64,000 bases of DNA, taken from the NCBI RefSeq assembly GCF_001679785.1, contig NZ_CP016290.1, positions 1 to 64,000 on the forward strand, in the 5' to 3' direction. The stretch's first letter is position 1. Every line of letters starts with the position of its first letter. The notes below the pieces were generated by a model. That model searched no databases, was not told the origin of the DNA, and was given only the letters and a program-made list of their open reading frames with translations. This DNA is from Rhizobium leguminosarum (GTDB taxonomy: Bacteria > Pseudomonadota > Alphaproteobacteria > Rhizobiales > Rhizobiaceae). The translations under genes and the position numbers were made by a program. This document shows, in pieces, positions 8,556-26,132 of this stretch.

Positions 8556-9133
8556 AACGACGCGTATTTCTCATCCCGTCGCTGCTTGCGGCAGGTTTCC
8601 TGCCGGTAAAGACCGACGCCATGCCGCTTGATCCGATCGTCAAGAAACCAGACCCGCATTCGATTCTCGAGCGGCTGAAGATCAAGCATCTCTATTCGCT
8701 CGCCGGCCACCGCTCCCATTCGAGCCACAGCTCGCACAGTTCCCATTCCAGCCACCGGTCGGGCAGTGGCGGCGGCTACCTGCCGAGCACGACCTACAGT
8801 GAACCCTCGCCACCGCCGCCACCTCGCTACACCGCGCCAACCTATTCCCCACCGGCAGCTCTGATTGCACCGACGCCCGCCCCTGCGCCGGCCGCTCCGC
8901 AGCAGATGGCACCCGCGAAGACACTTCCCGGAAACTCGAACAAGTTCAGGCGGATCGTCATCCAGGTGCAGTCGGGATTGACGGCCTACGGCTATTACGC
9001 TGGCGCCCTGACTGGCGTCGTCGACGAGGACACGCGCGCGGCGCTGAGCCAGATGCAGAAGGACAACAACCTCAAGATAACCGGCACGGTTACGACAGAG
9101 GTGTTGAATGCATTCGGGATTGCAGCACAATAG
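8552..9133 (+). CDS. hxsA: His-Xaa-Ser repeat protein HxsA (presumed RiPP-like substrate)
   Basis: The predicted 193-residue protein has an N-terminal signal-like segment (RRVFLIPSLLAAGFLP). Six uninterrupted His-Xaa-Ser triplets follow at residues 53-70, then a Gly- and Pro-rich linker and a C-terminal peptidoglycan-binding-type domain (residues about 135-190, YYAGALTGVVDEDTRAALSQ). The HxS tract is the presumed site of modification by HxsB and HxsC. The wall-binding domain suggests the product is exported to the periplasm or cell wall. The ATG at 8552 overlaps the hxsC stop, which fixes the start; a frame from 8492 would lie inside hxsC. Confidence 0.9.
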   Translation: MKRRVFLIPSLLAAGFLPVKTDAMPLDPIVKKPDPHSILERLKIKHLYSLAGHRSHSSHSSHSSHSSHRSGSGGGYLPSTTYSEPSPPPPPRYTAPTYSPPAALIAPTPAPAPAAPQQMAPAKTLPGNSNKFRRIVIQVQSGLTAYGYYAGALTGVVDEDTRAALSQMQKDNNLKITGTVTTEVLNAFGIAAQ

Positions 9134-9276
9134 CCATTGGAATGCAGTTCCGTTCTATGCGCAGCGCTTGGCAGGCTACCAGCTTCTGAAACCAGTTGAT
9201 GGCCAATCCCACCAGGTGTCTTCGATTTGAAGGTTGGCTGCATCATCGTCTGCGCGCTTCACGATTGGGAGGACAC

Positions 9277-10386
9277 GTGCTTTATCTCGACATCTTGATC
9301 CTCATCATTACAGGAGTCGGAGCGATCTACGGAATCTGGTCCGGCGACAATCTCAACAAGAAAAAGGCGACTATCTCTACGATCATCACGGTTTGCGGTG
9401 TTACCGCGACACTCTCCCTGTCCGTGTGGAAATATCTTGATGATCGAAAGAGCGCGGTCATTGCGGCACGGCTGCGCACCGACGAGCTTCTGACCACGCT
9501 CGCGGCGACCGAATTGCGCAACGTGGACGTTGCATGGACGTTCGACAATGTTCCGCCAGGGGCGTTGCAGTTGCTCGATATCGGCGACGCTCTTGTGGAT
9601 AGCTATTTTCTTGCTAACGAAGACGTTGATCGACTGCCGGCCGACGAACGCCGCAAAGTGGACATGGCCGAACGAATCGATACGACCGTCGAACCCATGC
9701 TCGGCCTTATCGCAAGCGGCACGTCCGATCCCTCCGGTCTTTTCGAGGGCGAGGATATTGGGATCGCCTTGGCACGGTTTAAAAATGACCCCAAAGGATG
9801 GGTCGACGGGCTCGGCACAGCGCTTCACTACAAGGGCGGGAACTACGAACTCCTATTTCCGCTCAACCCCAATTCTGACGCCATCCTGTCCCTCGGCAAA
9901 CCAGGCGACGATCCGGTGTCGGATGAGCCGAGCGCTTGGCAACAGGATACCAACCTCTTCGCCAAGACCAACTTTGCCTTCAAGGTCGGAGCCACCAGCG
10001 CCGAAGGCTCGGTCACGCTTCACTGGATCTATGATCGCGGATCGCTGAACCGAGCAGCCGAGCGCCCCACGGACGGAGAGTTGAGCGGCGGATTTGGCAA
10101 GGTATTTTCCTTTCTCATCGTGCATCGGCGGCTGGAACGAACGTCTTATCTGAACGAGTTGACATCGCGGCTTTCGGCCTTGCCGCCTGAACGCGCGGCC
10201 GGCGGCGGATGGGCGGACCATTCTACCCTGCAGATCTCCGTCAACGGACTAGCCAATCCCCACTATGTCTATGATGTGACCTATGCAGGCACACATTCCT
10301 ATGCGCCGAACAGAGGCGCCTACGACGCACCCGTTGAGGAGTTTGCCTATACCCGTTTCGATTGCCGGCTTCGAGCATTGGACTGA
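9277..10386 (+). CDS. Membrane-anchored protein of unknown function
   Basis: I do not recognise a family. The protein is about 369 residues. It has two N-terminal membrane helices (LYLDILILIITGVGAIYGIW and ISTIITVCGVTATLSLSVW) joined by a short charged turn. A short basic stretch (KYLDDRKSAVIAARLR) leads into a soluble, largely beta-rich region of about 300 residues. I chose the GTG at 9277 because GGGAGGA lies just upstream; ATGs at 9196/9199 lack such a site and would add a poor extension. The gene lies 143 bp after hxsA and opens the run of co-directional hydrolase and membrane-protein genes. A sensor or anchoring role for that cluster is only a guess. Confidence 0.6.
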   Translation: MLYLDILILIITGVGAIYGIWSGDNLNKKKATISTIITVCGVTATLSLSVWKYLDDRKSAVIAARLRTDELLTTLAATELRNVDVAWTFDNVPPGALQLLDIGDALVDSYFLANEDVDRLPADERRKVDMAERIDTTVEPMLGLIASGTSDPSGLFEGEDIGIALARFKNDPKGWVDGLGTALHYKGGNYELLFPLNPNSDAILSLGKPGDDPVSDEPSAWQQDTNLFAKTNFAFKVGATSAEGSVTLHWIYDRGSLNRAAERPTDGELSGGFGKVFSFLIVHRRLERTSYLNELTSRLSALPPERAAGGGWADHSTLQISVNGLANPHYVYDVTYAGTHSYAPNRGAYDAPVEEFAYTRFDCRLRALD

Positions 10387-10811
10387 GGCAATCAATCGAG
10401 GCGGAAAGAGCTAAGCGAGGCGATTTCTCGTGGTGGATGGTGGTTCCCGTCAAACGGTGGGTTCGCGAAATGCAGATCGACCGAATGATTGAGCCTCTTT
10501 TCCAAGGCCATGATCGGGCAGACCACGGCGGCAGTCTGGCATGAGGCCATTGAAAGGGCGCCCAGACGGGATACCAACAAGAATTCAGCGTTCAAACTGA
10601 AGGGTAAAAGCTTCCTTTCATCGAGGCGCGTTTATTTTTCATCAGAAAGTCAAAGAAAGAAAATCCGTTTTCTAATTCACCAAACCATTGCTGTACGAAA
10701 ACACCACCCCACCTTGCACTCTTTAAAGTTTTAGTCTTGCCAAAAAGCAATCAGCAAAGTATCTTCTGACACTTCCTAAATTTCAGTATTTGCAGATTCT
10801 TGCGGGGGCGG
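10387..10811. other. Intergenic, relatively AT-rich; likely promoter region
   Basis: About 425 bp without a supported gene. It is noticeably richer in A and T from 10600 to 10800 than its surroundings, which fits a promoter region for the downstream cluster. I cannot define -35 and -10 boxes with confidence. Confidence 0.35.
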
Positions 10812-11714
10812 ATGATGCTACACAAACTGAAAGCACGCGAATACAAGCTGCTTCTGAAGCCGGACCGATTCTCTGAGTCGGCGTTGGAAAAAGTCGAGCA
10901 TTTCTGGAATGATAGGATGAAGCGGCTCATCGACGATGAGCTTGGCCAAGACAATCGGGGCATGCCGCGACACGAAGGACGCTTCTCTCCTACGGAAGAG
11001 CGCGTTGTTAGATATTGGGACACGGCTGACTGTCTTCTAACCCGCGCCCACTTGACATTGCGAGAGCGTCGGCAGATCGACAAGCTGGCAAAATCGGACG
11101 AGTGTCAAATCACGTTGAAGTTGCGCATGCCCGACATGTTCGTCGTCGCCGATGCGGATCTCGGCGCAGGCAGTGCCGATCCGGACACCAAGTTTGAAGA
11201 AGACATCGCCCCACTTGAGGTCGACAATCCGGCAGGTGACGGGCAACCGGTTAGCATTTCCCCTTCCCGCTCCATCCGCAGCCGGTTTTCGCTTTCGACC
11301 ACGAAGGACAGGCAATGGAGCGAGCCGATCGCCAATCTTGGCAACGCACAGCGCATCTTCTCGAAACTTGCCGACCATCTGCCGTTCGGAACGAACTTTG
11401 AACCTCAAAGGGCATTGATCGCCGGTCCGTCTATCCGCGAAGAAGTCTTTGAGAACGCCCGGGTGCGGCTTGGCGCAAACGTGACAGGAAAGTTTGCGCT
11501 GACACTATGGTATTTCGACCGGACGGCCCCTCAAGTTGCGGAAATATCTTTCAAATCTAAACCTGCTAACGGCGAAATGCCTGGAACGGCGGCGCGGCGC
11601 GCCCTGAAGCTCTTCATCGGCATGCAAAACCAGCTTAGCGACTGGATAAATGCAGACTACTCGAGCAAGACGGCGCTCGCTTTGCCAGGCAACTGCGGCA
11701 AATCGAGCGAATAG
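10812..11714 (+). CDS. Soluble protein of unknown function
   Basis: A 300-residue protein with no family I recognise. It starts at one of two adjacent ATGs (10812/10815) after GCGGGGGCG. The N-terminal 100 residues are charged and helical (FSESALEKVEHFWNDRMKRL). A Ser-rich stretch (SISPSRSIRSRFSLS) sits mid-protein, and the C-terminal part looks beta-rich. It has no signal peptide or membrane helix. It is followed 52 bp later by the PLD-like gene and probably shares its transcript. Mixed hydrophilic composition and a good ribosome binding site support it being real. Confidence 0.6.
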   Translation: MMLHKLKAREYKLLLKPDRFSESALEKVEHFWNDRMKRLIDDELGQDNRGMPRHEGRFSPTEERVVRYWDTADCLLTRAHLTLRERRQIDKLAKSDECQITLKLRMPDMFVVADADLGAGSADPDTKFEEDIAPLEVDNPAGDGQPVSISPSRSIRSRFSLSTTKDRQWSEPIANLGNAQRIFSKLADHLPFGTNFEPQRALIAGPSIREEVFENARVRLGANVTGKFALTLWYFDRTAPQVAEISFKSKPANGEMPGTAARRALKLFIGMQNQLSDWINADYSSKTALALPGNCGKSSE

Positions 11715-11766
11715 CAATACCGTTGATCGATCACCCGCGCGATTGCGCGACCAAGGGAGGGGTATA

Positions 11767-13464
11767 ATGAGAGTTCCAGCGACAAATGCGATCATGCGCG
11801 CCCGTGCCATTGCGGGCACCTACGTCGTCACGCTTGCCTGGGACTTTCAGCCAGGCCAGGAAGGCAAGTGTGACGGCCTTATGGGATTTGCCATCGAACG
11901 CTCCGAACTAAGAGAAGGGACCGTCGTCGAACGCTACTGGATGCGCGGCATCAAGCGATTTCGCGACAAGGACCGGGGTCTTGCGCCCGGTACACCCGTC
12001 AGCACGGCAGATCACCCGATCCAATCGTTTCAATGGGCCGACTACACGGCCGAGACGGATCACCACTATCGCTATCGCATTGTGCCTGTCTACGGCGCCG
12101 TGAAAAATCTCACACTCGACGAAGCCTCGGCCATTTCCCTCGACATCGATACTGAAGTCGAGTTCCTCCTGAAGTCCGATGTAGACAATGCGTCGGCACG
12201 CCATGATGTCTATTTCAATCGAGGCGTCATCGGCTCGCAGGCTTTTGCCCGCCGCTTCGGCAATGCCAATCCCAAGGATAAAAGCCCGACATCGGAAGAA
12301 ATGAGATGGTTGTCGCGCGGCCTCTACGAAGCGCTTGTGACATTCATCGGACTTGCGACGGATCATCGCTTCGCCCTGCGCGCAGCCCTCTATGAATTCC
12401 ACTATCAACCGGTCGCCAATACTTTCGCCAAGGCGGTCCAAGCGGGTGCGGACGTCAAGATCGTCTATGACGGCGAGAGTTCCTACAAGACGGAAAACGA
12501 ACGGACCATCGCCAATGCCGGGCTCGACCAGATGGGCGCGGTCAAGGCGCGGACCGTCAGCGAAGGCATCCGCCACAACAAGTTTATTGTATTGATCAAA
12601 GACGGTCAGCCTATCGCAGTCTGGACAGGCTCCACCAACGTCTCGGAGGGTGGCATATTCGGTCATTCGAATGTCGGCCACATCGTCTGGGACCGGACGG
12701 TCGCCGAAGCCTACCTTCACTACTGGGAGCGGCTGGCCGAAAACCTCACGCCGACCCAGATCCGCCAGCCGAACCGGGCCGCTTCCCCGCTCCCAGCGGG
12801 ACGTCCGGCGCCAGACAGCGTCACACCAGTCTTCAGCGCGCGGGACGACAAGACCAGCAGTGCTACGCTGCAGTGGTATGCCGACCGCATGGCCGAGGCG
12901 GAAGAAATCGTCTGCTTCACAGTGGCATTCAACATCGATAAGGTCTTTCAGCAGGTCCTGAACCAGCAAAACGACGTGCTTCGCTATGTCGTCAAGGACG
13001 ACGATCTCGGCGACGGCGAAATCATCAAGGTGGACAATGACGTGCTTTTTGCCGCCGGTGGTTATCTCGGCGACGGGGCGCTGGCAAACTTCCTCAAGGA
13101 ACGCGACAACCCGCTCAACAGCAACGACTACATCCACGACAAGTTCATGCTGGTCGACCCGTTGGGCGACGAGCCCATAGTCGTCTCGGGGTCGGCGAAC
13201 TTCTCTCAGCCCTCGCAGCGCGTCAATGACGAGAACATGCTCGTCATCCGCGGCGACACCCGCGTGGCCGACATCTATTTCGGCGAGTTCATGCGCATTT
13301 TCGACCACCACTACGCGCGCTACCTCGTCAAGAAGCTGACGGAGACGGGCAAACACGATCCCGATGCCGGCTACCTGAAGGTAAAGTCAGAGGACTGGAT
13401 CACTTCGCACTTTAACCCTCAAAGCTACAAGTCCAAGCGCAGGCGCTATTTCCTCGGGATCTAG
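11767..13464 (+). CDS. Phospholipase D-family protein with N-terminal FN3-like domain
   Basis: A 565-residue protein starting at ATG 11767 behind GGGAGGGG. Residues about 10-125 look like a fibronectin-III fold (TYVVTLAWDFQP, GFAIERS, HYRYRIVPVYG). Two PLD half-sites follow. The second is canonical, HDKFMLVD from His 457 to Asp 464, with GSANFSQPS behind it. The first, HNKFIVLIKD at His 270 followed by VWTGSTNVSEGG, has its Asp two residues later than the HxKx4D spacing. PLD enzymes hydrolyse or transfer phosphodiester bonds in lipids or nucleic acids through a phosphohistidine. There is no signal peptide. The pairing with nuclease genes downstream makes a nuclease role as likely as a lipase role. 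Confidence 0.8.
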   Translation: MRVPATNAIMRARAIAGTYVVTLAWDFQPGQEGKCDGLMGFAIERSELREGTVVERYWMRGIKRFRDKDRGLAPGTPVSTADHPIQSFQWADYTAETDHHYRYRIVPVYGAVKNLTLDEASAISLDIDTEVEFLLKSDVDNASARHDVYFNRGVIGSQAFARRFGNANPKDKSPTSEEMRWLSRGLYEALVTFIGLATDHRFALRAALYEFHYQPVANTFAKAVQAGADVKIVYDGESSYKTENERTIANAGLDQMGAVKARTVSEGIRHNKFIVLIKDGQPIAVWTGSTNVSEGGIFGHSNVGHIVWDRTVAEAYLHYWERLAENLTPTQIRQPNRAASPLPAGRPAPDSVTPVFSARDDKTSSATLQWYADRMAEAEEIVCFTVAFNIDKVFQQVLNQQNDVLRYVVKDDDLGDGEIIKVDNDVLFAAGGYLGDGALANFLKERDNPLNSNDYIHDKFMLVDPLGDEPIVVSGSANFSQPSQRVNDENMLVIRGDTRVADIYFGEFMRIFDHHYARYLVKKLTETGKHDPDAGYLKVKSEDWITSHFNPQSYKSKRRRYFLGI

Positions 13465-13559
13465 TCACCGGCCCCCCGCTGACGAACGGTCCGGACGCGT
13501 TTACCCTTAACAACAGGCTCTGGACCGGAAATCCAAGGCCGATTAGATCAGAGGTTCCG

Positions 13560-14435
13560 ATGACATCATTCCCTGTTTTGATGGTTGCGGCGTCCCTTTC
13601 GATGCTAGCCTGCGCCGATGCTCTTGCCTGGGGTGAGAGCGGTCATTCCATTGTCGCGGAACTTGCGCAGAGGCGCCTGTCAGAACAGACGAGAATTGCG
13701 GTGGCTGACCTTCTGGGCGACGGCACATCGCTCGCCTCGATCTCGAGCTGGGCCGATGATTTCAGGGCGACAAAACCCGGCAAGAAGACCACGCGGTGGC
13801 ACTTTATCGATATCGACGTGAAGAAGCCGGACGCGGGTCATGCCTGCGAACTCGATCCAGTCGAAGGAGATTGCATCGTCGCTGCGCTAAAGCGTGAGAT
13901 CGCGGTGTTGGCAGATCGAGGCGCTGGCCGGACCGCCCGCACCGACGCCCTGAAATTTGTCGTCCATCTGGTCGGCGATATCCACCAGCCGCTGCATTGC
14001 TCAGAGCGCGACGGAGATCGCGGCGGCAATAGCCTCGAAGTGACCCTTCAGGGTATAGGCCCGGACAACAAGCCACGCACTGCCGATGTCAATTTCCACA
14101 AACTTTGGGACGAGACGCTGATCGGTGCTCACGCCTTCAGCTGGGGCGCTTATGCAAGCGAACTCGAGACATCCGTCATGCCCGGCATGGCGGCCGGCAT
14201 GCTTCAGGGCGAATACACTGCAGGCTGGGCAAACGAATGCTTCCAACAGGCAGTCCAGGTCTACGACAAGGTGCCCACCGGAACGGCCAGCAATGGTCGG
14301 ATCCTCATCGACGAGACCTATCAGGCATTCGCCCAGCCGATCCTCGACCGGGAACTCGTGCTTGGCGGATTGCGTCTGGCCGCCGTTCTCAATGACACAC
14401 TTGGCAAGAGACCGGGTGAAGCGGAAGGAAAGTAA
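13560..14435 (+). CDS. Secreted S1/P1-family nuclease
   Basis: A 291-residue precursor. The signal peptide MTSFPVLMVAASLSMLACAD ends at ALA, so the mature protein begins with Trp 24 of WGESGHSIVAELA. In P1 nuclease an N-terminal Trp and His coordinate the trinuclear zinc site. Further zinc-ligand blocks are visible: WADD, WHFIDI, HLVGDIHQPLHC and NFHKLWDE. The family cleaves single-stranded DNA and RNA and removes 3' phosphates. The product is probably periplasmic or secreted. The next gene starts six bases after its stop, so the two are very likely cotranscribed. Confidence 0.9.
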   Translation: MTSFPVLMVAASLSMLACADALAWGESGHSIVAELAQRRLSEQTRIAVADLLGDGTSLASISSWADDFRATKPGKKTTRWHFIDIDVKKPDAGHACELDPVEGDCIVAALKREIAVLADRGAGRTARTDALKFVVHLVGDIHQPLHCSERDGDRGGNSLEVTLQGIGPDNKPRTADVNFHKLWDETLIGAHAFSWGAYASELETSVMPGMAAGMLQGEYTAGWANECFQQAVQVYDKVPTGTASNGRILIDETYQAFAQPILDRELVLGGLRLAAVLNDTLGKRPGEAEGK

Positions 14436-14441
14436 GAGAGG

Positions 14442-16451
14442 ATGGCCCGCATCGTATCACCGCTCGGGACGGCAAGCCCTGACGCTCTAGTTTTCGCCTC
14501 GAAGGCGGCAATCGTCGAACAAAGACCAATGCAGGAAGCCGACAAGACGCTGACGGCGGCGCCTGCTTCCCCACCACAGACCATGAGCGTGGAAGAGCCC
14601 TCACGCACGACGGCGCGCATGGCGATGCTCAACCGAAAGGATCCCAACGCACTCGAGCGGATTATCGGCAGCCGCGACATTGTCAGCATCAATTTCTTCG
14701 AACGTGGGCTAGCGGTCGCAAAGGCGATTTGCCGTATCAAGATCCTCGGACGGCCGGCAACACCGCCTGATTATGGCACCGGCTTTTTGATAACGCCCGG
14801 TCTGCTGATAACCAACAATCACGTTCTTCCCGACTTCGAGACGGCATCTTATAGCCTAGCCGAATTCGCCTATGAGCTTGATCGGAACTTCGTTGAGAGG
14901 CGCGGCCATATCTTCCCCTTTGCGCCATATGAGGCGTTCTATACAAGTGTCGAACTCGACTTCACAATCGTTGCCATTCGACCGGTGGGGCACGATGGGA
15001 CGCCGATTACCGATTTTGGCGCGCTGCCCCTAAATCCGGTGAGCGGCAAAGGCATCGCCGGCGAACATGTGTCGCTGATCCAGCATCCGGGCGGTGGCAC
15101 CAAACAGGTCGTTGTCCGCGAAAACCGCATCATAGCACTCGACCCAGCGCGATTTCCGAGCGTCAGTCCAGCGGCAATCCATTATCAGGCCGACACCGAG
15201 GCCGGATCGTCGGGGGCGGCGGTCTTCAACGATCAGTGGGATCTCGTCGCGATCCATCATCTGGCGATTGCCGACCGGGACGATCAGGGACGAATTTTGA
15301 ACAGGCGTGGACAGGTCTGGGATGAAATGGAGGGCGACGAAGCCAAGCGCTGGATCGCCAACGAAGGCGTCCGCGTCAGCGCGATTTGGGAGGACTTGCG
15401 CAAGGCCAGCGTCTTCAACGCCAGCGCGGCAAAGATCATGGCGATGCTCGTCCATGATCCTCGCACCAACCATCAACCAATGCCGACAGTCGCGACGGAT
15501 TCCAAACCAAAAAAATGGCAGACACTTCCAGATGTTGGCGAAGCGCCGGCGTTCGAGAGCACCCGTTTTGAAGACCCGAAATTTTTAGGTTCCATAGGCT
15601 ACAGGCCCGACTTCCTCGGAGCCGATCTCATCGTCGAGCTTCCGCGCACGGCGGAAACGTTCAAAGGCCGGCTTGCCGTCAATACGATCACGAACGGCAA
15701 TGTCTTCGATTACACGCATTTCTCTCTCGCCATGCACGCTGACCGGCGGCTGGCGCTCTGGACTGCAGTCAATATCGACGGCGCTAAGCTAAAATCGGCA
15801 AAGTCGCCGGCTTGGCGACGCGACGATCGCTTGCCGGCAAACGAACAGACACTCGCAGAGATCTACGGCAAAGTCCCCGGGAAGGCCATTCAGATCGATC
15901 GCGGACATCTGGTGCGCCGTCTCGATCCGGTCTGGGGCGATCAGGAAGTTGCCGACCGCGCCGGGAACGACACCTTCCACTATACGAACGCTGCGCCGCA
16001 GGAACACATTTACAATAGTGAAATCTGGGGCAATCTCGAGGACTTCGTGCTCGCTCGGGCCGACAAGCGCTCGCAGAAGGCAACCGTGATGACCGGGCCG
16101 GTGCTGCGGCCTGACGACGACTTCTTCGGCGAAGGCATGCGCGGCGGCCCCTGGCAGATTCCATGGTCATTCTGGAAAATTGCTGTCTTCAAACGTCCAG
16201 ATGGGAGCGTTTCGGTCACAGGTTTCATCGTCGAGCAAACGTCCGATATCGCACCACTCTTCGAAACTACCCGCTACAATCCCTATACGGTCGAGGAAGC
16301 CCGCGTCTATCAACGGCCGATCGCACTCATCGAACAACTGACCGGACTGGACTTCGGCATCCTGCGCAGCATGGACAAAATGGGCACTGTTGAGACGACA
16401 TCGATCGCATCGGCCCGACCGATCCGCGGCGAAGACGACATCAACTTCTAA
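14442..16451 (+). CDS. Trypsin-like serine protease fused to a NUC1 (DRGH) non-specific endonuclease
   Basis: A 669-residue two-enzyme fusion. The protease domain spans residues about 95-290, with the catalytic triad visible as His 127 in TNNHVL, Asp 173 in ELDFTIVAI and Ser 257 in AGSSGAAVF. A linker follows, then a DNA/RNA non-specific endonuclease (NUC1) domain from about 385 to 620. That domain holds the hallmark DRGH at 486-489 (AIQIDRGHLVRR) and the metal-site region NAAPQEHIYNSEIW. No signal peptide is visible, so the protein may be cytosolic unless exported with a partner. The start at 14442 follows AAGAGAGG. By analogy with protease-linked effectors, the trypsin domain could activate the nuclease by self-cleavage or cut another cluster product; this is inference. 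Confidence 0.88.
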   Translation: MARIVSPLGTASPDALVFASKAAIVEQRPMQEADKTLTAAPASPPQTMSVEEPSRTTARMAMLNRKDPNALERIIGSRDIVSINFFERGLAVAKAICRIKILGRPATPPDYGTGFLITPGLLITNNHVLPDFETASYSLAEFAYELDRNFVERRGHIFPFAPYEAFYTSVELDFTIVAIRPVGHDGTPITDFGALPLNPVSGKGIAGEHVSLIQHPGGGTKQVVVRENRIIALDPARFPSVSPAAIHYQADTEAGSSGAAVFNDQWDLVAIHHLAIADRDDQGRILNRRGQVWDEMEGDEAKRWIANEGVRVSAIWEDLRKASVFNASAAKIMAMLVHDPRTNHQPMPTVATDSKPKKWQTLPDVGEAPAFESTRFEDPKFLGSIGYRPDFLGADLIVELPRTAETFKGRLAVNTITNGNVFDYTHFSLAMHADRRLALWTAVNIDGAKLKSAKSPAWRRDDRLPANEQTLAEIYGKVPGKAIQIDRGHLVRRLDPVWGDQEVADRAGNDTFHYTNAAPQEHIYNSEIWGNLEDFVLARADKRSQKATVMTGPVLRPDDDFFGEGMRGGPWQIPWSFWKIAVFKRPDGSVSVTGFIVEQTSDIAPLFETTRYNPYTVEEARVYQRPIALIEQLTGLDFGILRSMDKMGTVETTSIASARPIRGEDDINF

Positions 16452-16478
16452 CGGCAGGGCTTTACCGAGGTGACCGAT

Positions 16479-17534
16479 ATGCGCGCATATCTCGCTGAAA
16501 AATGGACGAAGACCAGGCCCTATATCCTCCCTGGCTTGATCTTTGCCGCGCCGATCCTCGTGGTCTGGCTTGCGCGCTTCATCTTCGAGGACATCATCGA
16601 AGTCGGACGCATCGACGTCGGATTTCTGCCGGGCACTGAAACGAGCGCATCTTATCCACTCACCTTTATCCCGGCCCAGGCGATCTCATCGCTCTACAAC
16701 TTCGGCTTCGCCTTATGCGCCGCCATGGTGTTTGCCGTCGCGCTCGCTACTTACGGCTCAGTGGTTGTCTGGATGGCAGCGCTCAGCGGGTGGCTGAAAG
16801 CCGGATATTTGCTGATGCTCCTGGTGGCGTTTGTGCTCGTCGCGTTCAATTTCTCAAAGATCAGCCTTACGGATGATCACATCCTCTCCAAGATCCGTCT
16901 TGCGGATGATCACATACCGACAGAGATCTCCAGAAACCTCATCGACAAGACCCTTTATTATCTTCCGACCTGCGAAGGAAAAGAGCTTCCCATCCTGCCG
17001 GCCTGCGCCAGCGGCGATATCGGCAACACGGGAAACAGTCTCAAACGGGTCGTCGCGCTCGGTATAGCGGTCTTGCTTGTCGCGGGTCTTGCTTACTTGA
17101 CGGCCATTGCCGTGGTCGCGGGTTCGACGGCCGTGTCCGTTGAGGACAGAATCGCGCGGATCAAGAATATCACTTTGCTTGCAGCGATAACATTTCTTCT
17201 GACAATCGTGGCAGTCCACCTGCTGTTCCAGCCCGGCGCAGATATGATCGCGGCAGCCTATCATCCCAAAAAACCAGAGGAGATCAGACAACTACTGGAC
17301 TACGGCAGTCTGCGCGGCGCCATGACGCTCTACTGGGCGACGATTTTCTCGCTGGCGCTCGGAACCGCCTACTTCTGTTCGGTGACCTTCATCCAAGGGG
17401 AGGCAAATAAGCTTGTTGATTTCGGCAGCATTTGGAATGTGGTCAAGGCGCTCTTGACGGTCATGTCGCCCCTGATCGCCGACTGGGCGCTCAAAATTGG
17501 CGAAATCTTCGCCGGCGTGCTCGGCACCCAATGA
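16479..17534 (+). CDS. Multi-pass membrane protein of unknown function
   Basis: A protein of about 351 residues with five or six predicted membrane helices: LPGLIFAAPILVVWLARFIF, ALCAAMVFAVALATYGSVVV, YLLMLLVAFVLVAF, VVALGIAVLLVAGLAYLTAI, ITLLAAITFLLTIVAVHLLF and MTLYWATIFSLALGTAYF. A short internal repeat, LTDDHILSKIR / LADDHIPTEIS, lies after the third helix and is visible in the DNA at about 16865-16920. The ATG at 16479 has CGAGG nine bases upstream; an alternative GTG at 16470 overlaps that site. It starts 27 bp after the protease-nuclease fusion, so it may form a membrane channel, anchor or target for it. No family recognised. Confidence 0.65.
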   Translation: MRAYLAEKWTKTRPYILPGLIFAAPILVVWLARFIFEDIIEVGRIDVGFLPGTETSASYPLTFIPAQAISSLYNFGFALCAAMVFAVALATYGSVVVWMAALSGWLKAGYLLMLLVAFVLVAFNFSKISLTDDHILSKIRLADDHIPTEISRNLIDKTLYYLPTCEGKELPILPACASGDIGNTGNSLKRVVALGIAVLLVAGLAYLTAIAVVAGSTAVSVEDRIARIKNITLLAAITFLLTIVAVHLLFQPGADMIAAAYHPKKPEEIRQLLDYGSLRGAMTLYWATIFSLALGTAYFCSVTFIQGEANKLVDFGSIWNVVKALLTVMSPLIADWALKIGEIFAGVLGTQ

Positions 17535-17710
17535 TCGGCACCGAAGGGAAGAACCGATGTGGACACCGGTCGCTCGTCAATGAGCCTGGGAAGGCCACCC
17601 ACATTGGATGGATACCACCCTCAACCTAAATAATGAGGTGAACACTCGCGCAAAAACTGTATCGTATGATGGTTACAATGCGCTGGAACTGAATAGATAT
17701 CCAAGGTGAG

Positions 17711-20092
17711 ATGATGGGCAACCCACCGTCAACTGGATTCAACTTCTTAGAATTCATCCGGTCGCATCGCGGGTCAGCGGCGGCGCTCCCGGATTTGCTC
17801 TCCCGGCTAAAGTTGGACGACGCGGGGCTCCAGGAGTATCTGAATTCCGAGGACCCGGTCCTCCGGCTTTTTGGTGTTGTAAGAATGTGCGCCATGGCGA
17901 GCGTCGGACCACGCCCCGAAATCGCGCTCCAACTCGCTCTTCCCGTTTGGGATGCAATGGCGGAGAGCCTCCCGGCAGAGCTCCAACTTACTGGCTCCCT
18001 CATCGAGACGATTTGTCAAAGCATCGCAATTTCAATCGGTGAAGCTGCCATTGGCTGCGGTGAAGCGGATGCTGCCATTCGCATCGCAGATCTCGTCAAA
18101 GGTCGTTTTGAAAACGGAGCTCCCAGCATCGAAGAAAATGCGATCCGCGGTTTGATCCAGAAACTTCGCCTCGCTGAGGCGCGTGAGCGATATGCCCGCA
18201 TTCCCTCATCTCCAGATCTCGATCGTCTATTGCGTGATTGGCGTCCCGTGACGCGGCCGGATGATATCTTGAGGCCAATGCCGATAGACACGCGATCGCA
18301 CCGAGAACGACTGGACACAGCGGCGCGCGAAGCCGCCAAGGCCTGGATCCCGGATCAGCGGCGCCTGCAGCGAGCGCAGGACACATTTCGCAGCGAGCTG
18401 CGTTCCGCGAGCGACATCGCCGAATTCGACGCAGCGCGTGCAGAGATGGACGCGGTTCTCGATCTCGTCGAAGTGCAAGTCGCAAACGAGGTTGCCGACA
18501 ACGCCAACGAAATTTTCCATCAACAGATATTCCGCTACCAAGTCGCTGCGCGCCGCGTTGAACGTCTTGTGCCAACCGAGGTCGGCAATCATCAGCAGGC
18601 ACGCCACGCGGTCAATTTTGCTGCCTCCGTGCTGTCGAACACAGCCAGAACCGAAGAAATGCTACGCGCGGCTCTGTCCGATTTGCAATCGGCCCTGGCA
18701 TGGTTTGTGTTAAAGGCAAACATTTCAGGTACCGCCGAGGCAAATTGGGCGCTAGGCTTAGTCCATGAAGAGCTCAATGAGGGGCCGGAAGCACTCGCCT
18801 GTTATCAAACGGTCCTGGACATCCTCATTTCCGCAGCCCATGACCTTCATGATCCCGCGGCGCGGGCAGCCACGATGCGGAGTTTTCCGAACGTCTATCC
18901 GAAGATCGTGCGCCTCGGACTCCGTTACGGAAAAGTTGGCATAGCATTTAACGCGTCCGAGGTTCTGCGCGGCACGGCCTATCTTCGTTCAGCCGGGCCG
19001 GCGTTTCGAGCAGAAGACACACCTATCGTTGGCTGGCATTATCTCTCGACTTTCGTCGATGACGAAGGATGCGTCGTTTTTCTGCGTCTCGGCGACGGAA
19101 CGCTTTATGCGCACCGGCCCCAGATCGGTCGCGAGGAATTGGATGCCCTGACCAGCCGCGTGCCACCTGCCGACTGGCATAGGAGTCGCCTCCGCGATGC
19201 GGGATCGCCGCGTGGGCCACTTTCGTCACTGCTACTGCCGCTCAGGCACGCATTCTCCGACGGTCGCATGCAAAGCGGAGATCATCTTGCCGTTGCGCTC
19301 GATTATCCGCTGAACCTGGTGCCGCTGCACTATCTGGATGTTCTCAACCGACCTATTGTTCACGATTTGAGTTTCTCGCGGGTTGCATCGCTGGGTGATG
19401 CGATCGATATCGATCGTGCAATCGTCGGCGGCCCTGTTGCCTCAGCATGCCTTGTGGTGATCCCCGCTGCCGACAATGCCGATCGGGAGCTTCACATGCA
19501 AAGCGCCGAAGAGGCTATTGACCCGATCCGTGAAATGGTGACCTTGCGCCGGATTAAAGAGGACGACACTGACAAGTCGAGCGTGCAATACGCCCTTCGG
19601 AACGCGCAGCTCGTTCATATCCAAGCGCATGGCTTCTTTCCACTCGCATCACCGGCAGAGACAGTGGACCCGCTTCTACAGGCAGGATTGCTCGTCTCTT
19701 CCAACGGGGAGTGGCCAGATCGATCGCGACCCGAACTTTATCTGATGTCGGCGCGAGAAATCATCGACGGCGGCCCGTCCGGCGCAATGCACGTTTCGTT
19801 GGCTGCCTGTGTAAGTGGGCTCGGTCGTCCGGGGTCGGCAGGTGACATGCTGGGTACGGAATTCGCACTCAGAAGCCTTGGGGTGGCGTCGGTCACCGCC
19901 AGCCACTGGCATGTCGACCTCGAGACAGCATCAAGTTTTCATGCGGCATTTTATCGATCCTGGATCGTTGAGGGGAAAAGTCGGGCTGCGGCCTGGCGAT
20001 CGGCAGTCTTGAGTTTGATGGCTGCTTATGGAGCAAATGAACGGGACTGGGCACGCGCTTGCGCATTTAGCCTTTATGGGAGTTGGAGATGA
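17711..20092 (+). CDS. CHAT-domain (caspase-like) protease
   Basis: A 793-residue protein with a helical N-terminal half that includes a TPR-like stretch (TAEANWALGLVHEELNEGPE) and a C-terminal CHAT peptidase. The likely catalytic dyad is His 640 in LVHIQAHGFF and Cys 700 in SLAACVSGLG, each at the end of a hydrophobic strand. CHAT proteases are caspase relatives; in bacteria they include effectors such as the Craspase protease, where a sensor releases proteolysis of a partner. The ATG at 17711 follows CCAAGGTGAG. Its stop overlaps the start of the next gene (ATGA), so that small protein is the most likely partner, regulator or substrate. Confidence 0.85.
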   Translation: MMGNPPSTGFNFLEFIRSHRGSAAALPDLLSRLKLDDAGLQEYLNSEDPVLRLFGVVRMCAMASVGPRPEIALQLALPVWDAMAESLPAELQLTGSLIETICQSIAISIGEAAIGCGEADAAIRIADLVKGRFENGAPSIEENAIRGLIQKLRLAEARERYARIPSSPDLDRLLRDWRPVTRPDDILRPMPIDTRSHRERLDTAAREAAKAWIPDQRRLQRAQDTFRSELRSASDIAEFDAARAEMDAVLDLVEVQVANEVADNANEIFHQQIFRYQVAARRVERLVPTEVGNHQQARHAVNFAASVLSNTARTEEMLRAALSDLQSALAWFVLKANISGTAEANWALGLVHEELNEGPEALACYQTVLDILISAAHDLHDPAARAATMRSFPNVYPKIVRLGLRYGKVGIAFNASEVLRGTAYLRSAGPAFRAEDTPIVGWHYLSTFVDDEGCVVFLRLGDGTLYAHRPQIGREELDALTSRVPPADWHRSRLRDAGSPRGPLSSLLLPLRHAFSDGRMQSGDHLAVALDYPLNLVPLHYLDVLNRPIVHDLSFSRVASLGDAIDIDRAIVGGPVASACLVVIPAADNADRELHMQSAEEAIDPIREMVTLRRIKEDDTDKSSVQYALRNAQLVHIQAHGFFPLASPAETVDPLLQAGLLVSSNGEWPDRSRPELYLMSAREIIDGGPSGAMHVSLAACVSGLGRPGSAGDMLGTEFALRSLGVASVTASHWHVDLETASSFHAAFYRSWIVEGKSRAAAWRSAVLSLMAAYGANERDWARACAFSLYGSWR

Positions 20093-20832
20093 GTGCCGAT
20101 ATCGATTCCAAAGCCGTTCAGCAGCGCGTTCAAGCGCTTTCCGATTTCGCATTGATCGCAACAGTCGAACGATGGGTGCGGTATTGTGAGGAGCATCTGG
20201 ATCCGCAGCAATTTGCCGGGATCGTGGGCGGCGTGCCGAGCCGCGATCTCGAAAACATGATCGCGGACGTGCGGCGTGCTGATCGTTCTCTGAACCGCTT
20301 GCGATCCGTCGTGGTGGCACGGTTGATTCTGGTTTCCGCATTGGCGGATCCCACTTGGCGAAATGCCGTTCTGGCAGTGTTGGATGCGCCGGACGATCAA
20401 CTCAAGGCAGGTGCCGCCTTGAGGTTTGGAACGGTCGGGATCGCTCTATTACTTCTCTCCGTTTCGCTGCAAGGTGATACTGCCACTCCGAATGGAGCGT
20501 CCTTTTCCGAGAGCACCGTTTGCGGGGTCGTGGCGCAGGCTCTTTCGCAGGAGGAATCCTCACCCCAGCCTGATCCTGAGGATCTCCGCATATGGGACGC
20601 GCTGAAGTGGCTGACATCGGTTCTGAATGCCTCAGAGATCACGGCACTAATCAATGCCGTGGAATTGTGGGGCTTTGGCGCGACCGGGGTAGCGATCCTC
20701 CTGAAGATGCGTAAAAAAGCCGGCACCATGTATCTTGTATTGCCCGACGGCCGCGAGGTGGAGATACCGCCAGATAAGCAGGCCTCTGTGGAACGCTTGA
20801 TCGCGGTGCCCAAGAAGTCCCGGCGAAAATGA
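20089..20832 (+). CDS. Unknown protein translationally coupled to the CHAT protease
   Basis: A 247-residue protein with no family I recognise. The first 100 residues are helical and charged (DFALIATVERWVRYCEEHLD). Two hydrophobic stretches follow, TVGIALLLLSVSL and a milder one near VELWGFGATGVAILL. The protein ends in a short basic segment (AVPKKSRRK) preceded by a beta-hairpin-like TMYLVLPDGREVEI. The ATG at 20089 overlaps the CHAT stop codon and has GGGAGTTGGAG upstream. Obligate coupling suggests it works with the CHAT protease, for instance as inhibitor, membrane adaptor or cleavage target; the sequence does not decide between these. Confidence 0.65.
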   Translation: MSADIDSKAVQQRVQALSDFALIATVERWVRYCEEHLDPQQFAGIVGGVPSRDLENMIADVRRADRSLNRLRSVVVARLILVSALADPTWRNAVLAVLDAPDDQLKAGAALRFGTVGIALLLLSVSLQGDTATPNGASFSESTVCGVVAQALSQEESSPQPDPEDLRIWDALKWLTSVLNASEITALINAVELWGFGATGVAILLKMRKKAGTMYLVLPDGREVEIPPDKQASVERLIAVPKKSRRK

Positions 20833-21045
20833 CACGATAGCGTCGTCCCGAGACATCAGACGCACTCGACCACTGAGATCGACTGCGAACCAATGAGGCG
20901 ATTTCGGGCTTTTCAGCAGAGACGGGGTATCGGCTTCGCGCCCCATCCTCGCCGACCGGAAAGGAAGGTGCTTCGCTCCGAGCCGTGATACCAATCTTGC
21001 AGCCGTCTCTCAGCGCCACCTGATACGCCTTGCCCATCATCGCGC

Positions 21046-21413
21046 GACGCGGTTGGGTCTTCCTTGCTCCAGGCAACGCCGAGCCCGATCCGGAAGTCGA
21101 TGCCCCTGACCGCCTTCAGCTCGAAGGCCCGGTTCGGCAGACCCTCGGTCCATTCCGGCGCAAAGCCGATGCCAAGCCCGGCCGAGACCAGCGACACCAG
21201 CGAATAGGTGTCGTCGCAGCTATAGGCGATGTTGCGGGTCAGATCGTATTCTTCGAACTTCTCGTTGAAGTGCTGTTCGGTGTAGCGATTGAAGGCGATG
21301 ATCTTTTCCGAGCGCAGATCATCGATGGCCATCTCTCCTTCGTCCGCCAGCCGGTTGGTGCGGGAAACCGCCAGCAGATAACGGTCATGGGCGATCGAGG
21401 AGAGCGCGATCTA
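21046..21413 (-). pseudogene. Fragment of a LysR-type regulator (substrate-binding domain)
   Basis: The minus-strand frame reads IAHDRYLLAVSRTNRLADEG, then DDTYSLVSLVSAGLGIGFAP and FRIGLGVAWSKEDPTA. This is the C-terminal part of a LysR-family effector-binding domain. There is no N-terminal winged-helix region and no start, and the frame runs into unrelated sequence at its 3' end. It is a relic. A 190-bp part of it recurs at 27456-27644. Confidence 0.7.
21051..21240. repeat. Direct repeat copy 1 (LysR relic), partner at 27456-27644
   Basis: About 190 bp closely similar by eye to 27456-27644 and in the same orientation. It runs from GGTTGGGTCTTCCTTG to GATGTTGCGGGTC. The two copies bracket the DyP peroxidase, EEP-fold and lyase-like genes. 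Confidence 0.8.
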
Positions 21414-21951
21414 ATGACGTTGCGGCGCTGGTTCTCATCGGGACGCAGGCGAGGCACCGACCTGATCCGATCCTTCACTTTGGTTGAGACACGGTTGGAA
21501 TCGGCGGTGGAAACTTTCTCCACCTCTACGGAGGGCCACCGATTGCGTGGCGACGATCTCATTCTGGCTATCTGACGCTTCTGGATCCTTTTCCATGCCT
21601 TGGTCCCCATTGTTGAATGAAGATGGTGGATGCGCGGCAGTTGGACGGCGAGGCGATGGTTGCGGCGCTCCGGATTTCGCACAAGACTATTGAATCATAT
21701 TCACGTTAAACGCGAATACGCTTTCGCACCATGGACTATTAACTTCCTCGATAATTTTGCCGTTCAACGTAACAACTTGATGAAATTCGAATTGATGCGG
21801 TTATTTTCGAGCTTTCTACTTGTGACTCGGCGAATAAAATGAAACAAATATTGCACGTCAGACGCGAGGATAGGTACGAGCGTGACGGGGAAAGCGTAAA
21901 TGTGCAGTAGGGGATAGTTTGCGACGGGCTTCGTCGGGCTGGAGGACAGGC
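21414..21951. other. Gene-free stretch upstream of the DyP peroxidase
   Basis: About 540 bp. The left half is decayed sequence with only short open frames. The right half (about 21690-21900) is AT-rich compared with its neighbours and is the natural place for the promoter of the downstream three-gene set. I cannot assign boxes securely. Confidence 0.4.
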
Positions 21952-24882
21952 ATGACCCAATCGCTAGTAACGAGTGCGATCCCTTTCGACGCCGAGAAGG
22001 CCGATCTCGTCGATGCAAAGCTCAAGGAATTCCGGCCTCAACTGTTCGGCAAAGAAGGGCTCGTTCGCAGTGCCCTGCGCGATCAGGGTATGCATTTCAT
22101 GTCGATCACCGTGGTTCGTGGCGATGTTGGAGAGCCGACGCATCTGGTTTTCGAAATGTCGGTAGACGGCGAGCCGCAACACGCCTTCGATACGGTCGGC
22201 ACGAAGCTCGCATCATTCGTCAGCGACACCCTGTCGGTGGCAGCTATTCAATCGCCAGGCTCGCTTAGCCAACTTCTCGCATCTCACCATGTTCGCACCG
22301 GCCAAGGCCTGCTCGATGTCCCGGGCCTCGACTTCTGCGGCACGCCTGGCATGACAGTGGCGCGGATCAAGCGCGAATATCTGCTCGCACGCGAACTCCG
22401 TTCCTATTTCGACACCCACCCGGCCGCCGGCGCACCGCTAGCCACCGTTGCGCGCGTGCGCGATTTCGTCAAAGGCAATGCCGACCTGGCATCGTTGCTG
22501 GATCCCGAGCCATTTCCCCGCCTTGCCGCCGAAGAGCCGCCTCGTCTTGATTTCGGCTTCATACTGTCTCTTGCATTTCGGGGGCTGCTCAAGTTTTTCT
22601 GGCCGGTTCTTTGTCTGCTCGGGCTTTTCGTTGTCGCCGCGACGATCGCTGCTGGGCTTTCGCAAGGGTTCACGGTCGGAGTGATCGCCTTCTTCCTGTC
22701 GGCCATCATCGCCGCCTTGGCCGTCGTGGTGACCGTCGTGAGCGTCTACCTTGGCCTGCGCCGCCTTGAGGTCGCCAACACGCCGATCGACACCTTGGTC
22801 AATCCGGACGTGATGGCGGCACTAACAGAGGCTGAAAATCTCAAAGACACGCAGCAGAACCATCTTGCCGGCATCTCGATCATGCAGGCTGGGTTGTTGC
22901 GGGGCATGCCCCTCAGAATAGCGTTCTGGGTGATCGGGCAGATGGCAACGAGGCGCTTTCGGCCCGGATTTCTCGGCGGTATCAGCACGATCCACTATGC
23001 CCGCTGGCTGCGACTGCCGAAGACAAACAAGCTTCTGTTTTTCTCGAACTACGGTGGCAGTTGGGAAAGCTATCTGGAGGATTTCATCACCAAGGCGTCA
23101 GGCGGCCTCACCGCCGTATGGAGTAATACGGTTGGTTTTCCACGCACCGAAAACCTGTTCTTCAAGGGAGCGACAGATGGCGACCGTTTCAAGCGCTGGG
23201 CGCGCCGCCAGCAGCAGCCGACATGGTTCTGGTACAGCGCCTATCCACACTTGACGACCGCACGCATTCGCACCAACGCCGCTATCCGCCAAGGGCTTGG
23301 AACAGTATCAACCGAAGACGAGGCCGCGGCGTGGCTCGGACTGTTCGGCTCAAAGGTGAGGCCGGCGACGTTGATCGAGACCTTCGAGGTCCAGACGCTG
23401 CTGTACGGCGGCTTGAGCAAACACCCCTACGCGACATGCCTCGCGATCAGGTTATCCGACGACCCCAAGCAAGCATGTGCCTGGCTGAAGTCGATCGAGG
23501 ATCAGATCACCTTCGGAGATCAGCCACCCGCCGACAAGGTCTTAATCTGTGCGCTGACAGGAGATGGCCTAAGACGGTTGGGCTTGCCCTCGGATGTCCA
23601 GGATGCCTTCCCGCCTGCATTTCGTCTGGGCATGGGTTCGCCCGGTCGGGCCAACCTGCTTGCCGATACCGGCGACGACCAGGCCAGGCAATGGCTGTGG
23701 GGCGGCCCGGAAAACGCAGTCGATGCTACACTGCTCCTCTATGCAGACTCTGAACCTACACTGGCCTCATACGCCGGGGAACTGATCTCAGGCATCGATG
23801 TCGCAGGCGGACAGGTGATACATCGGGTCACACCGACGCCGCTGCCACGGCCAGGGCCAGGTGAAACGGCGGCGCAGACGGTGCGGGAGCCGTTTGGCTT
23901 CGCCGACGGGATTTCGCAGCCAATCATCAAGGGAACGCGACGCTGGATGCGCCGGTCGGACGCTATCCATGCGGTCGAGCCGGGGGAGTTCTTGCTGGGC
24001 TATCCCGACACGCGTGGCTTCTTCCCGCCGTCGCCACAGGTGCCGGCTGCGATGGATCCCGGCAATCTTTTGCCGCTCGCTGAGCCTACGCACTCACGTG
24101 GCGCATTCCAGCCTGATTTTGGCAGCAACTGCGCCGCCGCCGCGCGCGACCTCGGACGGAACGGCACGTTCCTGGTCATCCGTCAACTTGCGCAATATGT
24201 CGATGTCTTCAACGACTATGTGGGCGAGGCGGCCAAACGCTACGCCGATCATCCAGCCGTGCCCGATCAACTCGATCCAGAGCTTTTAGCGGAGTGGATC
24301 GGCGCCAAGATGGTTGGCCGTTGGAAGGATGGCTCTTCGCTGGTGCGCTACCCGCATGGTCCAGCGACCAGAAAGCAGAGCGGGGGACATTTTCGGCCCG
24401 ACAATGATTTCCTGCCTGGCGCAGAGGATCCGCTCGGTGAGCGCTGTCCCCTCGGGGCTCACATTCGCCGGTCAAATCCTCGCGATAGTCTGGCCCCGGC
24501 CTCAATGGATGAACTTTCAATCGTCAATCGTCATCGCATCCTGCGTGTGGGGCGCGGTTTCGACGCCGTTGGCGCCAATGATCCGGAGGAACAAAAACCC
24601 GGCCTTCTCTTCATGTGCCTAAATGCCGACATCGAACGCCAATTCGAATTCGTTCAGCAGACCTGGGCCACGGCTTGGCAGTTTCACGGATTGGAAAACG
24701 AGGTCGATCCCATCACCGGCCGTGGTGGCGGCATGGGACGGCTGACGATACCCTCTCCGCGCGGCCCGCTGAACCTCGCCGGAATAAAGGATTTCGTGCG
24801 GATGCGCGGGGGAGCTTATCTGTTCATGCCAAGCAGGAGCGCGGTCCGGTTTCTCGCACGTCTTAGCAGCAACGGGCGCTAA
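21952..24882 (+). CDS. Large membrane-linked DyP-type peroxidase
   Basis: A 976-residue protein. An N-terminal region of about 200 residues of unknown fold precedes two membrane helices at residues about 205-270 (FFWPVLCLLGLFVVAATIAA; GVIAFFLSAIIAALAVVVTV). A mid region follows, then a C-terminal Dyp_perox domain from about residue 520. The GxxDG signature is GFADGISQP with Asp 652. The predicted proximal heme ligand is His 837 in CPLGAHIRRSNPRD. DyP enzymes use peroxide and heme to oxidise dyes, phenols or lignin-like substrates. Typical members are 300-500 residues, so this one is about twice the usual length. The ATG at 21952 has GGAGGACAGG upstream. There is no TAT signal, unlike secreted DyPs; the membrane helices seem to provide the location. 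Confidence 0.85.
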   Translation: MTQSLVTSAIPFDAEKADLVDAKLKEFRPQLFGKEGLVRSALRDQGMHFMSITVVRGDVGEPTHLVFEMSVDGEPQHAFDTVGTKLASFVSDTLSVAAIQSPGSLSQLLASHHVRTGQGLLDVPGLDFCGTPGMTVARIKREYLLARELRSYFDTHPAAGAPLATVARVRDFVKGNADLASLLDPEPFPRLAAEEPPRLDFGFILSLAFRGLLKFFWPVLCLLGLFVVAATIAAGLSQGFTVGVIAFFLSAIIAALAVVVTVVSVYLGLRRLEVANTPIDTLVNPDVMAALTEAENLKDTQQNHLAGISIMQAGLLRGMPLRIAFWVIGQMATRRFRPGFLGGISTIHYARWLRLPKTNKLLFFSNYGGSWESYLEDFITKASGGLTAVWSNTVGFPRTENLFFKGATDGDRFKRWARRQQQPTWFWYSAYPHLTTARIRTNAAIRQGLGTVSTEDEAAAWLGLFGSKVRPATLIETFEVQTLLYGGLSKHPYATCLAIRLSDDPKQACAWLKSIEDQITFGDQPPADKVLICALTGDGLRRLGLPSDVQDAFPPAFRLGMGSPGRANLLADTGDDQARQWLWGGPENAVDATLLLYADSEPTLASYAGELISGIDVAGGQVIHRVTPTPLPRPGPGETAAQTVREPFGFADGISQPIIKGTRRWMRRSDAIHAVEPGEFLLGYPDTRGFFPPSPQVPAAMDPGNLLPLAEPTHSRGAFQPDFGSNCAAAARDLGRNGTFLVIRQLAQYVDVFNDYVGEAAKRYADHPAVPDQLDPELLAEWIGAKMVGRWKDGSSLVRYPHGPATRKQSGGHFRPDNDFLPGAEDPLGERCPLGAHIRRSNPRDSLAPASMDELSIVNRHRILRVGRGFDAVGANDPEEQKPGLLFMCLNADIERQFEFVQQTWATAWQFHGLENEVDPITGRGGGMGRLTIPSPRGPLNLAGIKDFVRMRGGAYLFMPSRSAVRFLARLSSNGR

Positions 24883-25023
24883 AACGCCGCCGGCGCGTGG
24901 GGCCATTCCCGCGACAAGGAGACCTTGCTGAGCAAGAAAGACGGACGTGATGGACTCATCGATGACATGCACTTCGCTGCAAATCGCTGCACCGCAGGAC
25001 TATCCATGAACCCGGAGGAGAAA

Positions 25024-26121: not shown

Positions 26122-26132
26122 GAGGACCAGCC

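Follow-up and report, generated by a model that had tools for sequence, protein, structure and literature searches.

In most loci of its close clade, a constant gene, here called B, lies near enzyme sets that vary between strains. B is predicted to encode a protein of the CYTH / triphosphate-tunnel (TTM) fold, and in the locus described here it stands among eight genes, A to H, on a plasmid of Rhizobium. We give an even chance to the proposal that the locus holds a mobile, diversifying lysis or defence cassette that is deployed by proteolysis and headed or gated by B. Throughout, the window is the whole stretch of 64,000 nucleotides that was analysed; its positions 6000-27200 are 100% identical to the R. 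leguminosarum plasmid NZ_CP018229.1.

Gene layout and edges of the locus

Eight + strand open reading frames (ORFs) fill positions 9277-20832 (Table 1), in agreement with the eight co-directional genes of an earlier sequence-only reading. The phospholipase D-like (PLD), S1/P1, trypsin-NUC1 fusion and CHAT proteins which it had named were confirmed by Pfam (PLDc_2, S1-P1_nuclease, Trypsin_2 plus Endonuclease_NS, and CHAT). The 'mostly short gaps' of that reading hold for D-E (6 nt), E-F (18 nt) and G-H (an overlap of 10), but not for A-B (425 nt) or F-G (176 nt). The other gaps are 52 nt for B-C, counted from the later start of C, and 95 nt for C-D. This pattern fits one B-C-D-E-F unit, a second, overlapping G-H pair and a separate A; A, and perhaps also G-H, may have transcripts of their own.

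Table 1. Features of the A-H locus in window coordinates.
Feature	Position	Strand	Description
A	9277..10386	+	369 aa, one N-terminal transmembrane helix, without Pfam family
Promoter/operator-like element	10729..10751	+	TTTT-N3-CTTG[CT]-N6-[AG]CAAT, with TTGC-N6-GCAA inverted repeat, 60 nt 5' of B
B	10812..11714	+	CYTH / triphosphate-tunnel fold (predicted structure), proposed constant head gene
C	11650..13464	+	Phospholipase D-like, PLDc_2; real start probably ~11767
D	13560..14435	+	S1/P1 nuclease, likely signal peptide, mature N-terminus probably W24
E	14442..16451	+	Trypsin-like peptidase fused to NucA/NUC1 endonuclease, LypC-like
F	16470..17534	+	Multi-pass membrane protein, 354 aa
G	17711..20092	+	TPR-CHAT protease, near strain-specific addition
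H	20083..20832	+	249 aa, overlaps G, without assigned family

No Pfam family above cut-off was found for A, B, F or H. A crude hydropathy count gave one transmembrane stretch in A, five in F and none in B. The two membrane proteins called earlier are thus present, but D, G and H each have one stretch as well, which in D is the signal peptide. Of the 'two unknowns' of the same reading, H is still without a family, whereas B has gained a predicted fold.

An Hxs operon does precede the cluster, as had been noted, but it is a neighbour that lies outside the unit. The hxs homology with 10 other plasmid records stops at or before window position 9205 and never enters A, and Hxs was rejected as a system component. 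The right flank carries a LysR fragment (window 21040-21407), which lies 11.9 kb from the hxs end here and at most ~0.8 kb from it in NZ_CP030763.1, NZ_CP025015.1 and CP050515.1, the latter distance being an upper bound taken from the ends of joined matches that terminate inside the fragment. Because this distance is short in the three related plasmids, A-H look like a single insertion next to that operon. Since the LysR fragment exists in several copies, this evidence is good, not final.

Integrase and IS66 transposase genes flank the cassette on both sides, and defence genes lie near it, namely a Dam/DpnII-like restriction-modification system and a KAP NTPase. The former is a pair of adenine DNA methyltransferase and DpnII-like restriction enzyme genes adjoining the cassette (window 27894-29833), and the KAP-family NTPase (window 2015-4577) is apparently split across two overlapping frames. 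A second module, made up of a membrane gene, a Dyp-type peroxidase, an EEP nuclease and a polysaccharide lyase, occupies window 21919-27173 and is found at 82-90% DNA identity in three other plasmids. There it is divergent from a trypsin-NucA gene ~40% identical to E, which is absent beside the module here. In one of these loci (L023), the trypsin-NucA gene next to the second module is interrupted by a transposase.

Predicted fold and distribution of B

The AF2 model of B (pLDDT 91.4) has YgiF, AtTTM3 and putative class IV cyclases as its top matches (Foldseek, VIA-align), with Mediator Med18/20 and RNA triphosphatase at lower Z, and on this model B is predicted to be a CYTH / TTM protein. At the sequence level, Pfam CYTH was matched in 4 of 49 aligned B sequences (best E 0.0043) with no match in the window's own B, and a sequence-profile search of the PDB with B gave no match. 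We take ExExK to be the metal-binding motif of the CYTH / TTM superfamily and alignment position 8 of B to be its first Glu. Among the 49 sequences this position is Ala in 34, Gly in 11, Ser in 2, and Thr and Lys in 1 each. It is never Glu, and the intact motif is absent from these sequences, in which E10 and K12 are invariant. A domain common to A and B, guessed from their C-termini, was dropped after a search of A with the B profile came up empty at E<=1e-5.

A protein search with B returned 130 proteins, including the window's own, and its plasmid matches comprise 33 records of Sinorhizobium, Rhizobium, Mesorhizobium and Bradyrhizobium. B is rare among relatives' genomes, occurring in 14 of 399 with 10 of these matches weak (55-103 bits; 5 candidates scored per genome). 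None of the 32 pattern matches on viral contigs was confirmed. Six weak B loci, with 1-2 neighbours each, hold gamma-glutamyltranspeptidase, P450, sulfatase, DEAD helicase, cytochrome c or proteins of no family. As these are mostly ordinary chromosomal genes, the link with a hydrolase arsenal seems limited to the close, mostly plasmid-borne clade. P450 recurs in both the close clade and the weak-relative loci. Distant B relatives in three genera (L132, L133, L134) lie between cytochrome P450 and gamma-glutamyltranspeptidase genes.

A promoter-like element before B

For the close clade, 17 B loci were read (the window, L024, L026, L027, L118-L127, L129, L130 and L142). L120 has a broken and L127 a partial B, and L123 was taken from the annotation table and sequence. 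The element of Table 1 lies 56-78 nt 5' of the B start in seven of them (the window, L024, L118, L121, L122, L129 and L142, among which window/L122 and L024/L142 are close pairs); its absence from the other 10 counts against the reading of a B-headed cassette. Throughout the locus set (5.49 Mb, both strands counted) there are 8 matches, all 5' of B and two of them at the same place, and the single exact copy in the own genome (8.57 Mb) is the one 5' of B. The bare pattern itself is not rare: 57 of the 399 relatives contain it, at 73 places in all against ~12 for the backwards control, and only 3 of the 73 precede B. The element was therefore rejected as a genome-wide signature and serves as evidence by its position. 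Within the window, there is one exact element and one with 2 mismatches, equalled by 22 of 100 shuffles.

Enzyme sets around B

The neighbours of B include trypsin-NucA, EAD5-trypsin (in R. etli Mim1), S8 proteases, amidases, PLD, patatin, S1/P1, haem peroxidase, P450 and a papain-like protein. Also present are EndoU and DUF2278 proteins with a weak lamin-tail domain and a GDSL-like protein below the Pfam cut-off. Patatin and pYEATS genes surround B, C and E in Phyllobacterium KW56 and Mesorhizobium L-2-11, and ABC-3C and SIR2 defence genes occur in other B loci. In L120 (10291-10758), a predicted AAC(3) aminoglycoside-resistance call covers an ORF that clusters with the DUF2278/lamin-tail proteins, and the label looks doubtful for this reason.

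Degradative keywords were found for 27 of 118 coding sequences (CDS) near B in 10 annotated loci, compared with 4 of 105 control CDS (Fisher p 2.0e-5); the keywords also pick up commonplace annotations, HNH endonuclease and SOS-associated peptidase among them. Six annotated CDS per side were taken where available, and the controls were three 50-kb stretches from three of the same plasmids. At least one such neighbour is present in 9 of the 10 loci. The proximity of E or F had guided the choice of some of these loci; in L122-L126, where it had not, the count was 16 of 58 (p 2.0e-5). L120, where B is broken, had 0 of 12, and L130 has no arsenal and instead an ABC transporter and proteins of no assigned role. 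A profile of E gave matches in 9 of the 16 close B loci, and E was already known to be nearby when 6 of them were chosen. The rarity of B, the two loci L120 and L130 and this limited presence of E count against a B-headed cassette. In L124 and L125, which gave no E match, B lies near an S8 protease.

Other rhizobial loci, from several species, again bring B, C, D, E and F together, in varying order. The expectation that the genes travel together is therefore borne out for these five and finds little support for A, G and H, which have few or no relatives in the same context. The eight genes are not the right unit, and the recurrent head gene B had been overlooked. Chance accumulation, in which a plasmid hot spot gathers unrelated mobile genes that form no functional unit, would account for the isolation of A, G and H, for the two wide gaps and for the integrase and IS66 transposase genes on either side. 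We consider it improbable, given the recurrence of B to F across species, the hydrolase enrichment near B, the element before B and the tight D-E and E-F spacing.

Exchange between strains

When window 9000-22000 was compared with the corresponding locus of R. etli IE4803, only 10210-11724 was common (1515 bp, 91% DNA identity). This stretch runs from the last part of A through the promoter-like element and B, and stops 10 bp past B. Downstream of B, IE4803 carries an amidase-domain protein, a trypsin, a trypsin-PLD protein and a patatin, and none of C, D, E, F, G and H has a blastp match in the locus at E<=1e-3. Under looser clustering, the trypsin-PLD protein joins the family of E via other members.

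In Rhizobium sp. CC1099, identities to the window are 43% for B, 39% for C, 65% for D, 76% for E and 64% for F. Since the values for D, E and F are far above those for B and C, D-E-F look as if they had been transferred together, separately from B, and the uneven identities between strains imply block exchange.

The other genes of the cassette

A was matched beyond its own replicon in 2 plasmid records; in R. gallicum pRGM101a, a 53% relative, in two pieces, directly follows a trypsin-NucA gene. C (PLDc_2, E 2.1e-16) has HxK at 309 without the Asp and a full HxKx4D at 496. It also partially matches DrmC (3.4e-08), and no other DISARM protein was found among the ten proteins scanned. D is an S1/P1 nuclease (S1-P1_nuclease, 4.5e-54) with W24 behind the likely signal peptide. 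Relatives of F adjoin D-E in L024 and L025 and lie near B in L024, L120 and L121.

G (CHAT, 6.7e-24) has readable H640 and C700. CHAT proteins are distant caspase-like peptidases. A protein search with 8000 candidates scored found one other relative of G (59%), and elsewhere, in plasmids and 150 related genomes, there were partial matches to the CHAT region only (4 other genome matches, 29-35% identity). H was matched among plasmids only on its own replicon. A conserved CHAT-H module is accordingly without support, and the idea that H is an EACC1 relative, guessed from its C-terminus, found no Pfam match at E<=1.

E combines Trypsin_2 (2.3e-20) and Endonuclease_NS (1.1e-37) in one protein. The trypsin residues H127, D173 and S257 and the NucA motifs DRGH (486-489) and N516 are readable; as for the motif residues of D, G and C, we presume their catalytic roles. 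The structure predicted for E, at pLDDT 57, was too poor to be used. By eye, no signal peptide is evident in C, E or G. As D has a likely one and E does not, not all enzymes would act in one compartment.

E as a member of a large family

The E family is large, with at least 2684 proteins at E<=0.001 among 7999 scored, and some relatives sit among unrelated genes. On the Cupriavidus plasmid pRK1-2 (L110 9974-12100), a type II secretion operon carries a trypsin-NucA gene between its gspF and gspG. In R. sophoriradicis pCC511_1 (L022 1-9708), a cluster of ferritin-like, radical SAM, C25 peptidase, serine protease and Dyp-peroxidase genes is found near another trypsin-NucA gene. At the I-J-K loci, a different E paralogue accompanies a Dyp peroxidase and an EEP-type nuclease, and B was found there neither by tblastn nor, in L021-L023 and L117, by profile.

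The architecture of E has been named before, contrary to the sequence-only reading, which knew of no named system with this content. The available text of Kaur et al. 2020 (PMC7159879) describes the NucA-trypsin pair as the core of 'System 3', mostly alphaproteobacterial, and proposes a proteolytic cascade. The same architecture is that of LypC in the available text of Banks et al. 2026 (PMC13236601). For LypABC of Caulobacter, that text reports that the peptidase activity of LypC is needed for lysis, that the nuclease residues tested are dispensable and that overproduction of LypABC is toxic. It also names phospholipases and endonucleases as alternative death effectors.

The locus could thus be a plain System 3 / LypC variant, in which E and its partners act while B, C and D are accessory and share no joint mechanism. 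E has the defining fusion of a NucA/Endonuclease_NS domain and a trypsin-like peptidase and is alphaproteobacterial, and its homologues are widespread without B, both at the I-J-K loci and among unrelated genes. B, however, also accompanies other proteases at loci that gave no E match (the S8 loci), and some of its loci provide it with an element of its own. Moreover, neither a LypA-like CARD-trypsin-ATPase nor a LypB-like NLR was found in the cassette (Pfam E<=1, no ATPase domain; none by PADLOC). We regard such a variant as rather unlikely. The lack of an NLR, STAND or other sensor NTPase (Pfam, PADLOC) counts against the variant and against a B-headed cassette alike; the dispensable LypC nuclease was also counted against the latter.

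Proposed mechanism

In the B-headed cassette, B would be the constant component with its own promoter-like element, and the hydrolases behind or beside it would be exchangeable, with lipid, nucleic acid, protein and peptidoglycan as their putative targets. LypC-like E is the probable executioner protease in the window copy. It may stay quiet until a trigger arrives, presumably phage or other mobile DNA, and perhaps perceived through a nucleotide or polyphosphate ligand that the phage alters. B would read or destroy that ligand and so gate the effectors. By analogy with LypC and the System 3 proposal, E might then cleave and thereby release or activate the membrane protein F, a putative membrane partner, together with the PLD, the S1/P1 nuclease and CHAT; the outcome would be lysis or abortive death.

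A wider version is offered tentatively, as a possibility only. Here, such loci would represent a new class of diversifying immune or self-lysis system on rhizobial plasmids. B, with its altered metal site and its own operator, would act as their shared switch, sensing or producing a phosphate-based signal. Under its control would stand exchangeable sets of lipases, nucleases, proteases, peptidoglycan hydrolases and oxidative enzymes, deployed by proteases.

The S1/P1 nuclease, the PLD and the polysaccharide lyase could equally be explained as scavenging enzymes, a point counted against the B-headed cassette. The genes would then form a secreted depolymerase cluster that digests external polymers for phosphate and carbon, with B handling triphosphates or polyphosphate. 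The likely signal peptide of D, the EEP and polysaccharide lyase genes further right and the predicted fold of B, which is that of tripolyphosphatases, are all compatible with this. The lack of an evident signal peptide in E, C and G is not, and proteases, CHAT, EAD5-trypsin and peptidoglycan hydrolases are a poor fit; a role in conflict agrees better with the defence genes nearby and with the uneven identities seen around B. We therefore see scavenging as improbable.

Immune systems built from a constant and a variable part are a major theme of bacterial conflict. The link between a trypsin-NucA protein and programmed lysis, made in Caulobacter, is very recent. If the B-headed cassette is real, its CYTH / triphosphate-tunnel head gene would be a new type of switch, linking phosphate-based signalling to killing enzymes released by a protease. 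The locus is concrete and testable, in a symbiotic and genetically tractable genus.

Comparison with known systems

In the literature searched, we found neither a CYTH protein tied to phage defence nor this hydrolase set with B as head gene. In contrast to CYTH / TTM enzymes (YgiF, AtTTM3, ThTPase, class IV adenylyl cyclase), B lacks the first Glu of ExExK, and its clade is mostly plasmid-borne and tied to hydrolase arsenals.

The EACC1 two-gene 'System 4', in the available text of PMC7159879, has a domain with transmembrane helices and is mostly paired with a caspase. The locus resembles it in joining a constant component to a highly variable effector. Unlike EACC1, B has a predicted CYTH fold and no transmembrane stretch, and neither EACC1 nor caspase was matched by Pfam in the eight proteins at E<=1.

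With System 3, the locus shares the fusion in E and its alphaproteobacterial host, and the available text of PMC7159879 likewise describes other peptidases and effectors nearby, for which proteolytic deployment is proposed. Here, no STAND was matched, nor any EAD in the eight proteins (Pfam E<=1; EAD1 is optional and belongs to a subset of System 3 operons), and the recurrent head gene is B. CYTH, CHAT, pYEATS and patatin are not mentioned in the available main text of PMC7159879, where phospholipase appears only in a reference title.

Like LypC in its published description (available text of PMC13236601), E has a trypsin domain followed by an endonuclease. Unlike LypABC, the cassette encodes its hydrolases together with E, and the recurrent partner is B instead of an NLR.
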